Positions 22,314 to 29,120 of a stretch of DNA of 47,061 nucleotides are shown here, in pieces. The stretch covers positions 1 through 47,061 of the forward strand of contig JAGOZU010000016.1 of assembly GCA_018058545.1 (NCBI GenBank). Direction: 5' to 3'. A program made the position numbers and the translations under genes. Source of the DNA: Promineifilum sp. GTDB taxonomy: Bacteria; Chloroflexota; Anaerolineae; Promineifilales; Promineifilaceae. Under the pieces are notes generated by a model. That model made no database searches, was not told where the DNA came from, and worked only from the letters and a program-made list of their open reading frames with translations. The stretch's first letter is position 1. Each line of letters begins with the position of its first letter.

Positions 22314-22341
22314 TTGTCTGTCAGGGGTGGCGACATATAAT
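22314..22341 (+). promoter_or_regulatory. Sigma-70-type promoter for trmB, implying a leaderless mRNA
   Basis: TTGTCT (22314-22319) and a perfect TATAAT (22336-22341) are 16 bases apart. Transcription would begin near 22348, at or next to the ATG at 22349. The upstream ATG at 22340 overlaps the -10 box and cannot be used on this transcript. The hexamers are seen; the start point is inferred from normal spacing. Confidence 0.6.
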
Positions 22342-22348
22342 GGGGCCG

Positions 22349-23362
22349 ATGGTTTTTCATGAATGGTACAAGGTGGAACAGTTGCCTTGGCCGGCGGATT
22401 GGGCTGCCCTCTTCGGCCGCGCCGCGCCGCTGATCATCGAGATCGGCTTTGGCAGCGGTTTGTTTTTGGTCGACCTGGCCCGAAGGCGACCTGATGTCAA
22501 TCTGGTGGGGCTGGAGATCTCAATTCCCTCGATTCGTAATGCAGGACACAAGATCCGGCGCGGCGACTTGTCGAACGTGATCCTGATGCAGGCCGATGCC
22601 GCCGCCGCGCTCCATGCCTTGTGCGAGCCGGGGAGCGTGGCCGGGGTCATCATCAATTACCCTGATCCCTGGCCAAAGAAAGATCATCTCGATCGTCGTC
22701 TCATCGATGATGAATTTCTGCGTCTGCTGGCCACGCGCATGGCGCCGGGTTCCGATCTTGACGTCGCCACCGACCACGACGACTATGCCGAACAGATCGC
22801 CGCTTGCCTGTCGCGCTCGCCCCATTTCGACAGTCGAATGGAGGCTCCCTTCTCCTTTGACGATCCGGGGCGGCTGCGGACGAAGTATGAGCGAGTTGCC
22901 TTGGAAGAGAAGCGCGTCCCCCGCTATTTCAAGTGGCGACGTAACGACGCACCTGCCGAAGACAGTTTTCCCATCCCCCAGGAGTTGCCTATGCCGCACG
23001 TCGTTTTGCGCCTGCCGGCCGATTTGGCCGAGATCGGCCGCTGCATCCAACCCGGCGCCGTCGAACTGGAATCCGCCCGCATCCGTTATATCGAAGTCTA
23101 CCAATCGTTGCGCGACGGCAAATTGCTGATCGAAACTTATATCAATGAGGATCCGATCCGGCAGCGTCTGGCCCTGGAGATTCGCTCCCGGCCGACGGGG
23201 GAGATCGTTATTGCGCCGGGCGAGGTGGGATTTCCACGGCCGACTCGCGGCGTCCACCTGGCGATTCGCTACCTCGTCGACCGATTGCGCGAGGAATTTC
23301 CATCGTTGGTTATCGTCCACAACACCTTGCAGGAGGAGATACATGCCGACCGTCCACACTAA
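22349..23362 (+). CDS. trmB: tRNA (guanine-N7-)-methyltransferase TrmB with long C-terminal extension
   Basis: TrmB methylates G46 of tRNA with SAM. The SAM-binding motif EIGFGSGLFLVDLA (residues 31-44), then VGLEISIPSI and the family signature NYPDPWPKKDH (103-113), are intact. The 337-residue protein is over 100 residues longer than common TrmB. The core ends near residue ~205, and residues ~210-337 are an extra region. I recall that Aquifex-type TrmB also has a C-terminal extension; whether this one is related is unknown. ATG 22349 is chosen because an earlier in-frame ATG overlaps the -10 box. The 3' end overlaps the next gene by 20 bases. Confidence 0.9.
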   Translation: MVFHEWYKVEQLPWPADWAALFGRAAPLIIEIGFGSGLFLVDLARRRPDVNLVGLEISIPSIRNAGHKIRRGDLSNVILMQADAAAALHALCEPGSVAGVIINYPDPWPKKDHLDRRLIDDEFLRLLATRMAPGSDLDVATDHDDYAEQIAACLSRSPHFDSRMEAPFSFDDPGRLRTKYERVALEEKRVPRYFKWRRNDAPAEDSFPIPQELPMPHVVLRLPADLAEIGRCIQPGAVELESARIRYIEVYQSLRDGKLLIETYINEDPIRQRLALEIRSRPTGEIVIAPGEVGFPRPTRGVHLAIRYLVDRLREEFPSLVIVHNTLQEEIHADRPH

Positions 23363-24134
23363 CGGAATCACCATGCACTATGAGACAGCGGGGCAGGGCG
23401 AACCGTTGCTTTTTTTGCATGGCTTAGGCTCGCGCTGCGAGGATTGGGCATTCCAGTTTCCGGTCTTCGCCGAGCGCTATCAAGTCATCGCGGCGGATAT
23501 GCGCGGACACGGCCGCAGCGATAAACCGCGCGGCCCCTACAACGTTCCGATGATGGCGGCCGATGTCAACGGCCTTCTCGCCGCGCTTGATATCCCCGCT
23601 GCCCATATCGTGGGACTGTCCATGGGCGGCATGATCGCCTTTCAGATGGCTGTGGACAATCCCGAACGGGTGCGCAGCATGACCATCGTCAACAGCGGCC
23701 CGGCGCTGGTGGCCAACTCATTCGGGGAGTGGTTACGTATTCGGCAGCGGGTGCTGCTGGCCCAACTGTTTGGCCCGGCCCGCACCGGGGTCTTCCTGAG
23801 CAAGCGGCTATTTCCGAAGCCTGATCAGGTGGCGTTACGTCGCCAGTTCATTGAGCAATGGGCGCTAAACGACCGCGACGCCTATCTGGCCTCCTTGCGT
23901 GCTCTGGTCGGCTGGAGCGTTCTCGATCGCATCGGCGCGATTCGCTGCCCGCTGCTGGTCATCTCCGGGGATCGTGATTACACGCCGCTGGAAGTGAAGA
24001 GGCAATACACGGCCCTGATAGAAGGCGCGCGATTGGTCGTCATAGAAGATTCAGGCCATGCGACACCCATCGATCAGGCGGATCAATTCAATGCCTGCGT
24101 GTTGGGCTTTTTGGATGAGATCAAAACGCATTAA
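23343..24134 (+). CDS. Alpha/beta hydrolase
   Basis: This 263-residue alpha/beta-hydrolase has LLFLHGLGSRCEDW (oxyanion-hole region), the nucleophile elbow GLSMGG (S93), the acid in SGDRDYTP (D212) and the histidine in DSGHATP (H239). A complete triad suggests an active esterase, lactonase or related enzyme; the substrate is unknown. ATG 23343 follows AGGAGGAG and lies inside the end of trmB, so the two are translationally coupled. The frame is open further upstream but that part is the shadow of trmB. Confidence 0.9.
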   Translation: MPTVHTNGITMHYETAGQGEPLLFLHGLGSRCEDWAFQFPVFAERYQVIAADMRGHGRSDKPRGPYNVPMMAADVNGLLAALDIPAAHIVGLSMGGMIAFQMAVDNPERVRSMTIVNSGPALVANSFGEWLRIRQRVLLAQLFGPARTGVFLSKRLFPKPDQVALRRQFIEQWALNDRDAYLASLRALVGWSVLDRIGAIRCPLLVISGDRDYTPLEVKRQYTALIEGARLVVIEDSGHATPIDQADQFNACVLGFLDEIKTH

Positions 24135-24163
24135 GGCTACGATTGTTTAAATGAGGGAAACTG

Positions 24164-24922
24164 ATGAGAGTACTGATTGCCGGGGAAATACCCTTTATCG
24201 ATGAGGTCGAGCGCCTCTGCCGCCGCGCCGGCCACGATTTGCGCGTCTTTCTGGTGGAAGACTTCCTTAGCATGGTGGAGGCGGACTATGACCAGTCGAG
24301 CCTGGGTGATATCGAGATCGCCATCGAGTTGCATAATGAGTCGGCGGCGATCAAGGCGGAGATTCTGTCGGCAATGGGTGAATATCTGCCCGAAGATGCC
24401 TTGATCCTTACTTCAGCCCTGGCGACCAGCGTCACGATGGCCGCGTCATGGGTCGATCATCCCGAGCGGGTGGTCGGCTTTGGCGTGCTGCCGCCCGTGC
24501 CCGACGAGGGAATCATCGAGCTGGCGGTGGCGATGCAGACGGCCGAACCGGCGCTGACGCAGGCGGAGTTGTTCTGGCGGGGGTTAGGGCAGGAGACCCT
24601 GCTGGTAGCCGACGGGCCGGGCCTGGTTAGGGCCAGGACGGTGTGCTGTCTGATTAACGAGGCAGCGTCGCTGCTGATGGAGGGAGTTGCCTCGGCCGAA
24701 GATATCGACAAGGCGATGCGCCTGGGGATGAACTATCCCATTGGTCCACTGGCATGGGCCGATCTCATCGGTCTGGATGCGGTGCTGGGCGTCATGACCG
24801 GATTGTTCGAGGAGTGGGGAGATGACCGCTACCGCCCCACACCTCTCATTCGCCGAATGGTGGCGGCGGGTTTGCTCGGCCGCAAGACCGGGCAGGGATT
24901 TTTCCCGTATGAGGATGCCTGA
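24164..24922 (+). CDS. 3-hydroxyacyl-CoA dehydrogenase-like protein, degenerate N-terminal domain
   Basis: This 252-residue protein follows the layout of 3-hydroxyacyl-CoA dehydrogenases. The C-terminal domain (~150-250) is well conserved: INEAASLLMEGVASAEDIDK, then PIGPLAWADLIGLD and GRKTGQGFFPY. The N-terminal NAD domain is altered: the glycine-rich GxGxxG is replaced by IAGEIPF (residues 5-11). The catalytic-histidine motif (usually HFFNPVP) reads GVLPPVP, with G107 where His is expected. It may be a non-catalytic or differently acting relative. It lies 29 bp after the hydrolase gene and converges on the selenoprotein gene. Confidence 0.75.
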   Translation: MRVLIAGEIPFIDEVERLCRRAGHDLRVFLVEDFLSMVEADYDQSSLGDIEIAIELHNESAAIKAEILSAMGEYLPEDALILTSALATSVTMAASWVDHPERVVGFGVLPPVPDEGIIELAVAMQTAEPALTQAELFWRGLGQETLLVADGPGLVRARTVCCLINEAASLLMEGVASAEDIDKAMRLGMNYPIGPLAWADLIGLDAVLGVMTGLFEEWGDDRYRPTPLIRRMVAAGLLGRKTGQGFFPYEDA

Positions 24923-24936
24923 CACTCCCGGCTTGG

Positions 24937-25215
24937 TTACGATGCTTGCGGGTACGGCTCGACGTCCCGGCCGATAATCTGCTGAAAGAGATTCAGAATT
25001 TCACCCGGTTCGGCGTGTCGACCGATCTCCTTTTTGGAGAATAGCACACGGCCGTCAACCGTGAAGCGAAACATGCCTTTGCTGCTGGTGATGAGGGTGA
25101 AGCTCTCGATGACGTGCTGGTAATTGCGCATGATGTCATCCGCCACACGGGCGGCGCGAGGCCAATAGTTTCAGGGCACGCAGTATTCAAGGGTGATGAT
25201 GTGTTTTTTTATCAA
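24937..25215 (-). CDS. SelW-like (Rdx family) selenoprotein, TGA read as selenocysteine
   Basis: Read from TTG at 25215, the frame encodes MIKKHIITLEYCVPUNYWPR, with TGA at 25171-25173 as residue 15. The continuation RAARVADDIMRNYQHVIES and the end GRVLFSKKEIGRHAEPGEIL match the Rdx/SelW/SelT-like thioredoxin-fold family, whose redox motif is CxxC or CxxU. TGA stands exactly where the second Cys or Sec belongs (C12-x-x-U15). GGAG lies nine bases before TTG. The 92-residue length is typical. A hairpin follows the TGA. If selenocysteine were not inserted, only 14 residues would be made. A Cys-to-stop mutation is the alternative; intact coding after the TGA argues against decay. Confidence 0.82.
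25140..25173 (-). promoter_or_regulatory. Selenocysteine codon and candidate bacterial SECIS hairpin
   Basis: On the - strand, UGA (25173-25171) is followed by a hairpin in which CCGCC (25154-25150) pairs with GGCGG (25144-25140) around the loop CGUGU. The loop begins 22 bases after the UGA and has G as its second base. Bacterial SECIS elements are generally described as a short stem within about 16-37 bases of UGA with a G early in the loop. The lower stem is weak (two extra pairs). Confidence 0.65.
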
Positions 25216-25266
25216 AATAGGTCGCTCCGATATGAAAGAAGATCATAGACCTTGGCGGTGTGGGAG

Positions 25267-25419
25267 TCAAATGACAGATTGCGAATGATGAACTGGCTTG
25301 TTATCGACAACTGGTTCTCTTCGAGTGTGGGGTGAGCCTGAACCGCAAACACAGCGCTGAGCTTCGAACGTGGCGATTGCTTTTTCCAGCTCCTGCCGGC
25401 TAACGTTTGCCTTGCCCAC
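25267..25419 (-). pseudogene. Possible gene remnant with a coiled-coil-like segment
   Basis: A 50-codon - strand frame from GTG 25419 reads [20 protein letters not shown], then becomes low-complexity and unrelated (CVCGSGSPHTRREP) before TGA. The first part resembles the ELEQAIAALEAQR coiled-coil segment I recall from many Chloroflexota regulatory proteins. The end looks frameshifted. It has no Shine-Dalgarno and may be chance, so I offer it only as a possible decayed fragment. Confidence 0.25.
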
Positions 25420-25436: not shown

Positions 25437-25553
25437 TAGCTGGGTCCGTACGCGATCCTGCACCGGACGAAGTTGCCGGGCGGCCGGCGCGGGCACGTGG
25501 GACGAGCGACCGGCAGTGGTACGGCCGCGCGCGGCGATCCCCAAAAACATCTT

Positions 25554-28500
25554 ATGAAATTGCGCAAACTCACCCTCCAGGGGTACAAGACATTTGCGTC
25601 GAAGACGGAATTCGTCTTCGATAGCGGTATCACGGCAATTGTCGGGCCAAACGGCAGTGGCAAGAGCAATATCGCCGATGCGCTGCGGTGGGTATTGGGC
25701 GAACAGAGCTTCGGCACTCTGCGCGCCCGGCGTTCGGCCGACATGATCTTCGCCGGAAGCCAGCAGCGTTCGCGCGCCGGCATGGCTCAGGCGACCATCA
25801 CGCTGGACAACAGTGACGGCTGGCTGCCCATTGACTACGCAGAGGTCGAGATCGCCCGGCGGTCGTTTCGTTCGGGCGAGAATGAATATCTGATCAACGG
25901 CCAGCAAGTGCGGCTGAAGGATGTCGCCGAACTGCTGGCCACCAGCGGCCTGGGCGAGCGAACCTACACCATTATCGGTCAGGGCCTTGTCGATCAGGCC
26001 CTCTCCTTGCGTTCGGACGAGCGGCGTGCCCTCTTTGAAGAAGCGGCCGGCATCACTCACTACAAAGTCCGTCGCGCGGAGACGTTGCGCCGCTTGGACG
26101 AAACCCAGCGCAATCTCCAGCGCGTCCATGATATTTTGGAAGAGCTGCGGCCGCGCGTCGTCTCTCTCAAGCGTCAGGCCACCCGCACCCGAAATTACGA
26201 GCAGATATCGGCTGATCTGCGGGAGTTGCTTCGGGTCTGGTACGGTTACAAGTGGGAGCAAGCCAAGGGCGATTTGAGAGCGACGCGGCAGGCAGCGGCG
26301 GCGGTCGAGAGCGCCTGGACGATCGCTCGCAATAAACTGCTGGCCCACCAGAGCCAAATCGATGAAGCTCAAGGGCGGCTGGGCGGGGGGCAACAACTGG
26401 CGGCCGAACTTCAGGTCGCGCGCGACCGATTGCGGCAGGAGCTGGAGGGCGCGCGTCGCCGGCAGGCCGTTTATCGCGAGCGCCGGGTCGCGCTCGAGGG
26501 TCAAATCGAGGAGACGTCGAGCGAATTGCCCTCGCTTGAACAAGCTACGGCGGCGGCTCGCGCGGAGGTAGAGGCGGCCACGACCGATCTGGTTGCGGCG
26601 CAAGCCGAACTTCAAGGCCATCAATCCCGTTTGCAGGAATTTCGTGTCACCTTCGAAGGCCAACAAACGCGGATAGCGAAACTGCGAGCGGAGGTCGATC
26701 GGGCGGAAACGGAGCGACGGCAGAGCCGGACGGCGATGGCGCAGGCCGAGGGTCAGTTGGCCCAATTACGCTTGCGTCTGGAGGAGTTGACGGCAGAATC
26801 TGATCAGGTCGGTGGCGTTTCCTCGACGGACGCGCCGACGGATGACGCTCTGGCCGCGCTGGACTCGAACACGGCCGCCGCGCGTGATGAGGTGATCCGC
26901 CTTCAAACGGCCCGCAACGACGAAAACCGCGCCCGAAGCGCCGATATCGGACGGCTTAAGGAACTGCGCCACGCCGCTCGCGAGGCTGAGCAACAGCTCA
27001 ACAAACTGCGGAATGAGCTGGCCCGGCAGGAGGAGCGGGTGGCTTTGCTGGAGCGGCAGAGGCAACGCGAGATACCTCTGGAGTCCAACCGGGTCATTGG
27101 CCGTTTGGCATCGCTGGTGAATATTCCGGCAGCATACGAGCAAGCCATCGCGGCCGCTTTGGGCGACCGTCTGTCCGCCTGGCTGGTTAACGATACCGAA
27201 AGCCTGTGGCAGGCCGTAGCCGGTTACGGGACAAATCGCGACGGCAACGAGGCGCGTCTCTCTCTGGCCGCCTTCGATTTGCCGGAGGTGACTGTTGCCA
27301 ACAGGCCGGATGTGGCCGGGGAACGCGGCGTCATCGGCTGGGTGGACGATGTCGTGACGTCTGGCACGGCCGCGTCGCTGGTCAAACGGTTGCTGGGGGA
27401 CGTATTGCTGGTTGAAGACGCGAGGACGGCTTATCGGCTGGCTACCGGTTGGCCGCCCGGCTTCACCGCTGTCGCGCCGGACGGCCTTGTCGTTCGCGGT
27501 GGCGGGTATGTCGAAGTCGGTGGCGCGGCCGGTGGTGGCTTCCTGGCTCAGGAGGATCGCCGTCGCCATGAAATGGCCCGGCTGGACGAGATGCGCGCCA
27601 CGCAGGAGAAGCGCGAGGCCGAAACAAACCGCCGGCAGGCCGAGATCGATGCCTTACAGGAGAAGGTGGACGAGCGGGCGAACGAGGAACGGCGTTTGGT
27701 TCGACTGGAAGGCGAGGCGAGTCAGACGCTCAATAGCGTCCGTGGGCAATTGGAGCGAGCGCGCCAGCAGCGGGATTTCGATGCTCGCCGTCGCCGGGAA
27801 CGCGACGTCGCTCTGGGGCAAGCCCGGGAGCGCATCACCCAAACCGAGGCGGTTATTGCTCGGAGGACCGAAGCCTTGACAGGGTTGGAAAGCGACCTGT
27901 CAGCAGCACAGGAACAGCTGGCGGCACTGCCTGTGGGCGAGGTGGAACAACAGCAACAAAGCCTTCGCCAGTCGCTGGCCGCGGCCCAGACGATTCTTGC
28001 CGGACGACAGGCGGTCGTCGACAGCCGTCGCTCCACATTAAATCAAGGTGAGGGTCAACTCGGCCGCGTACGTCAACGATTGGCGTCCCTGCGTGCTCAG
28101 CTTGAGAGTCTGGGGCAGCAGGAAGACGATGCCGAGACGGCCGCCATGGAGGCTGAGTTGGCCGATATTGAGGCATCGCTTGTTCCGCTGACGGCCGAGA
28201 TGAATGCCGATCGCGCCTTCCTCAGTCGCTTGCAGGCGGATTCGACCGGATTGCAGCGCCAAGCCCACGACCTGGAAACCCAATTGACCCAGTCACGCAT
28301 CCGCCAGACGCAGTCCGAGAATCAGATCGAAGGATTGCAAGAGCGCATCCGGGCCGATCTGGGACTGGTATCTTTGAACTTCGACGCTGAGCAAACCGGC
28401 GCGACGCCGTTACCCATGCATGAAGTGGTCGAAGATTTGCCGGTGGTGAACGAATTGCCGGCCGATATCGAGGATAGCATTCATCTCTATCGCGGCCAGA

Positions 28501-29120
28501 TGCAGCGCATGGGACCGATCAATCCCGACGCCCCGGCCGAATTGGCCGCCACCGAGGAACGCTTTGACTTCCTGACGCAACAGATCGGCGACCTGACCGA
28601 GACGGACGGGCAGTTGCGCGGGGTCATCGCCGAGCTGGATGAACTGACCTCCAAGGCGTTCTCGAAAACGGTTGAGCAGGTCAACGAGATCTTTGACGGC
28701 ACCTTTCAGCAACTGTTTGGCGGTGGGTCAGGGCGGCTGGTGATGACCGATCCCGATGATCCGACCAGCAGCGGCGTGGAGATTATCGCTCGACTGCCAA
28801 ACCGGCGGGAGCAGGGGTTGGCGCTACTCTCTGGTGGCGAACGTTCGTTGACGGCCGCCGCGCTTATCTTTTCTCTGCTGAAAGTCGCGCCGCCACCCTT
28901 CTGCGTGCTCGATGAGGTTGATGCGGCTCTCGACGAGGCCAATGTCACCCGCTTCCGGGACGTCTTGCGCGAGCTTGGCCAACAAACGCAATTTATCCTG
29001 ATCACCCATAATCGAGGCACCGTCCAGGCGGCCCAGACCCTCTATGGCGTCAGCATGCAGCCCGACAGCTCCAGCCAGGTCATCTCGATCAAGCCGGAAG
29101 AATATTTCCACCGCGCGTGA
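25554..29120 (+). CDS. smc: Chromosome segregation protein SMC
   Basis: SMC is the condensin-like ATPase that compacts and segregates the chromosome with ScpA and ScpB. The 1188-residue protein has Walker [10 protein letters not shown] (31-39) and long coiled coils (~170-500 and ~680-1000). The hinge lies at ~507-675 ([20 protein letters not shown], then GGGYVEVGG). The ABC signature [18 protein letters not shown] (~1091) and Walker [17 protein letters not shown] (~1115) close the head. The ATG at 25554 gives [14 protein letters not shown], the family start. The frame is open 27 codons further upstream but that sequence is not SMC-like. tadA follows after 35 bases. Confidence 0.96.

Follow-up and report, generated by a model that had tools for sequence, protein, structure and literature searches.

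Does the TGA within a short minus-strand frame of this Promineifilum sp. contig interrupt a small gene, or does it specify selenocysteine (Sec) in a longer one? When the TGA at 25171..25173 of the window (the whole stretch of 47,061 nucleotides analysed here) is read as U, the minus strand from 25215 to 24937 yields 92 residues followed by TAA (LIKKHIITLEYCVPUNYWPRAARV...YPQAS), with U15, encoded by 25173-25171, closing a CVPU (CxxU) motif. The assignment of 24937..25215 (minus strand, 92 codons plus TAA) as a SelW-like selenoprotein gene is based on the frame, homology and conservation, and that of the TGA as Sec15 on the frame, the relatives and a Cys/Sec alignment column. On these sequence grounds, we are close to certain that the locus is functional and encodes a selenoprotein of the SelW-like (Rdx) family. 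The gene is probably transcribed on its own; Sec would be inserted into its product with the help of SelB and an mRNA hairpin, and the CVPU motif would serve a redox role. Under the standard code, the longest leftover frame comprises 69 amino acids (24937..25146, GTG start), exactly the fragment with which gene callers had been expected to be left.

The start codon is a TTG at 25215, preceded at a distance of 9 nt by a Shine-Dalgarno-like GGAG sequence (25225..25228, minus strand). Most members of the genus use an ATG one codon downstream, where the window has ATA (25210-25215, minus strand). Further upstream, a candidate sigma-70-like promoter (TTGACT-17-TATGAT; 25242..25270, minus strand) was identified by its match to the consensus, with one such match found and 0.5 expected in shuffled sequences. 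The adjoining gene, which encodes a 3-hydroxyacyl-CoA dehydrogenase, is convergent and has been retained as a neighbour in five genus members. It is part of a plus-strand group (22340-24922) that also includes genes for a trmB-like methyltransferase and an alpha/beta hydrolase and in genus members likewise adjoins the SelW-like gene. The divergent smc gene of the window (25551-29120) was not found in the flanks fetched for these relatives.

Profile searches place the predicted product in the Rdx family. The Pfam model Rdx (PF10262) matches residues 7-77 with 54.9 bits (gathering threshold 22.6; E 1e-14), thus spanning the TGA and bearing out, with exact coordinates, the earlier note's proposal of a 92-residue Rdx/SelW-like protein read across this codon. 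NCBIfam TIGR02174 (CXXU_selWTH) also matches across the TGA and exceeds its cut-off (42.0 bits). The equivalog model NF041051 (SelTWH_Campy), again aligning across the TGA, reaches 83.7 bits and fails its cut-off of 88, and because of this shortfall of 4 bits, any more precise assignment to a subfamily is tentative. The prediction that the TGA would fall on a Cys/Sec column of Rdx/SelW proteins was confirmed by an alignment to solved SelW-like structures, in which the corresponding residue is a Cys (YCvpC, or YCTQC in 2fa8). An AlphaFold model of the protein (pLDDT 91.9) displays a thioredoxin-like fold with the order beta-alpha-beta-beta-beta-alpha. Its best match in the PDB is the SelW-related protein 2fa8 (Foldseek E 2.5e-8, TM 0.78-0.81), and the top of the ranking lists SelW-related bacterial proteins, followed by MIEN1, thioredoxins and mouse SelW. 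A Cys-containing paralogue was not found in this genome, which has a single Rdx gene.

Decoding of UGA as Sec in bacteria involves an mRNA hairpin (bSECIS) whose apical loop carries a G at one of its first two positions, with G or U frequently coming next, and lies 16-37 nt from the UGA (PMC13188914). The window contains a predicted element of this kind, CCGCC[CGUGU]GGCGG (25140..25154, minus strand), which fits the published rule in both its loop, CGUGU, and its distance of 21 nt past the UGA, and which is conserved, covarying and depleted of synonymous changes. Taken alone, it is unremarkable, being matched by 22% of synonymous resamplings, and the region around the UGA, folded as a single sequence, was not significantly stable (shuffle z ~0.2), for which reason comparative tests were adopted. 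It is thus comparison between species alone that argues for the predicted hairpin. Such a hairpin is present, about 17 or 21 nt past the UGA, in all 39 sequences tested, window included, with a mean stem score of 15.8 compared to 7.6 under synonymous resampling; 19 of the 39 fall individually below the 5% level. A set of 119 comparisons among eight species of the genus revealed no synonymous difference in codons +6 to +10, compared to 42% elsewhere in the gene. No other run of five codons past the TGA has so low a value, and only 30 of 20,000 random five-codon sets were as low. Moreover, standard pairs occupy each of the 80 pair cells in 16 sequences with the 21-nt register, and three of the five pairs have undergone two-sided changes, whereas sliding the partners along as a control left at most 66% paired; the selection of these rows for their register favours the pairing percentage, not the two-sided changes.

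In one genus member (L066, from genome G405), the stem reads CCACC/GGUGG, such that a G-C pair is replaced by A-U and the helix is kept; both altered stem codons change the amino acid, from Ala to Thr and from Ala to Val. A longer alternative hairpin with the loop CCGCC, seen in L012 and L014 but disrupted in L013 and L032, was abandoned in favour of CCGCC/GGCGG. Within this one protein family, the apical loop occurs in two registers, 17 or 21 nt past the UGA, with one of them comprising L015-L020, L022, L034-L045, L047, L049-L052 and L055, and the other, which includes the window (21 nt), L012-L014, L021, L032, L033, L046, L048, L053, L056, L057 and L059. We see about even chances that the SelW-like genes of the Chloroflexota and their relatives use two bSECIS registers (17 or 21 nt), mostly with a GU-bearing loop, and that the RNA element can override the protein sequence. 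If true, the two registers would provide a small natural data set on the tolerance of SelB.

A TGA inside a family-wide reading frame could also have arisen by a recent nonsense mutation or represent a miscalled TGC or TGT, leaving a remnant that is translated from the GTG or not at all, and a standard-code caller indeed finds just a 69-residue ORF. However, each of the eight genus genomes keeps the TGA, which was also found at the CxxU position in all 11 relatives recovered by a scan of GTDB contigs, comprising three Promineifilum MAGs (73-76% identity) and members of the Acidimicrobiia, Acidobacteria, Gemmatimonadales and Actinomycetota. Since the same codon recurs in independently sequenced species, the sequencing error that the earlier note had named as grounds for rejecting its reading does not apply. 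Nor is the region decayed in relatives, with coding intact on both sides as proposed: pN/pS amounts to 0.19 before and 0.30 after the TGA (genus set, including three duplicate rows), reflecting purifying selection on both flanks, the pattern expected of a gene translated across the TGA. Together with the conserved hairpin, these observations make a pseudogene or error exceedingly improbable. A similarly minute chance remains for the idea that the real product is the GTG-initiated frame of 69 residues past the TGA. This frame is open, but its product would contain neither the first strand nor the CxxU motif, and it would account neither for the selection acting on the codons before the TGA nor for the start codon and GGAG site that precede them. 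In four of the relatives from the Acidimicrobiia/Actinomycetes (L015 to L018), the next stop-type codon near the usual C-terminus is again TGA, so that one short mRNA would contain a UGA for Sec and another that probably serves for termination. Searches of phage families returned no match, and plasmid records contained distant Rdx matches only (at most 37% identity).

UGA readthrough is known in other bacteria, and the codon might accordingly be read by another route, for instance as Trp or Cys through a near-cognate tRNA or a change in the genetic code. Against this, the genome contains a full set of Sec genes, as the earlier note had anticipated from the sequence. The window corresponds to C56, one of the 185 contigs that make up a draft genome of 3.6 Mb (97.9% complete, 0.44% contaminated), in which profile searches detected selA on C11 (539.8 bits) and, on C175, both selB (341.8 bits) and selD (373.8 bits, one in-frame TGA), all above their cut-offs. 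The selC gene sits elsewhere, on C121, where a tRNA-Sec with the anticodon TCA scores 62.2 bits (gathering threshold 47) and is called tRNA-SeC by ARAGORN, which found no tRNA at the selA, selB and selD loci. The location of these genes on contigs other than that of the window, in a draft assembly, counts to some extent against our explanation. The selD gene (L010:1092-2024) is itself a selenoprotein gene, with its in-frame TGA in the context ...SCAGU... (CAGU), and a GC-rich hairpin, GCUCC[GGC]GGAGC, was recognized by eye 17 nt past this UGA. Because selD, too, combines an in-frame TGA with a downstream hairpin, the genome would, by sequence criteria, assign Sec to UGA at two or more positions.

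The distribution of the gene points in the same direction. A survey of 400 Chloroflexota genomes, with forms sorted by stop content as given in the search output and genome lists compiled by hand, returned a match in 182 genomes. Among the matches listed, the TGA form occurs in 128 genomes, 127 of which possess selA, compared to 195 of the 272 others (Fisher P 1e-13, relatedness ignored), and stop-free forms only were found in 14 genomes, with selA present in eight and absent from six. The sole TGA-form genome without selA among these matches (G329) is 77% complete, which renders the missing gene uninformative. Given this near-perfect co-occurrence, the complete machinery including tRNA-Sec(TCA), the SECIS hairpin and the position of the TGA on a Cys/Sec column, decoding by another route appears very improbable.

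Frame, homology, the conservation of TGA and hairpin, and the genes for the Sec machinery lead us to infer that the gene is translated as a selenoprotein. SelB carrying Sec-tRNA(Sec) would bind the hairpin just past the UGA and Sec would be inserted at position 15, giving rise to a small product that would adopt a thioredoxin-like fold. Other members of the family suggest by analogy that its CVPU motif would close reversibly into a selenenylsulfide and take part in redox reactions of thiols and selenols. A role as a small thioredoxin-fold selenol/thiol redox protein is therefore the most likely one by this analogy.

SelW-like CxxU selenoproteins have been described in bacteria since 2005-2006 (PMC1088965, PMC1794560, PMC13188914). 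Excerpts of the report on the Sargasso Sea set present them as its most abundant selenoprotein family and name no substrate for the bacterial members, whose function they call unclear (PMC1088965). The family was listed in a 2006 table of bacterial selenoprotein families, with Cys homologues being rare in Sec-using organisms (PMC1794560), an observation with which our phylum survey is consistent, and a 2026 review treats it as a high-confidence family (PF10262, CxxU) (PMC13188914). The gene is thus a further member of a long-known family, found in a Promineifilum-like representative of the Chloroflexota; the earlier note was right to identify a hidden SelW-like selenoprotein, but the surprise it implied was overstated. 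While our general understanding does not change, a gene liable to truncation by standard gene finders was correctly spotted, and Chloroflexota selenoproteins are little described in the literature we found. As about one third of the sampled genomes carry the TGA form (among the matches listed), Chloroflexota annotations are probably often wrong at this gene.

Compared with known systems, the window protein shares with the bacterial SelW-like family (PF10262) its length, a CxxU motif near the N-terminus, a TGA at the Sec position, a bSECIS just downstream and a thioredoxin-like fold. Cys-type SelW-related proteins such as Atu0228 (PDB 2fa8) and SAV_2001 (3dex) have the same fold, align with it and carry a CxxC motif in the same place, but they contain Cys instead of Sec and are ~30% identical to it. 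Mammalian SelW (2npb) and MIEN1/C17orf37 (2ljk) belong to the same superfamily, with sequence-profile matches of E 3e-4 and 2e-7, respectively, but are distant in sequence. In eukaryotes, moreover, the SECIS is located in the 3' UTR, unlike in the bacterial selenoprotein genes considered here. Relative to the bacterial family, nothing essential differs, and the motif is flanked by the residues found in this genus (YCVPU-N/D-YW).
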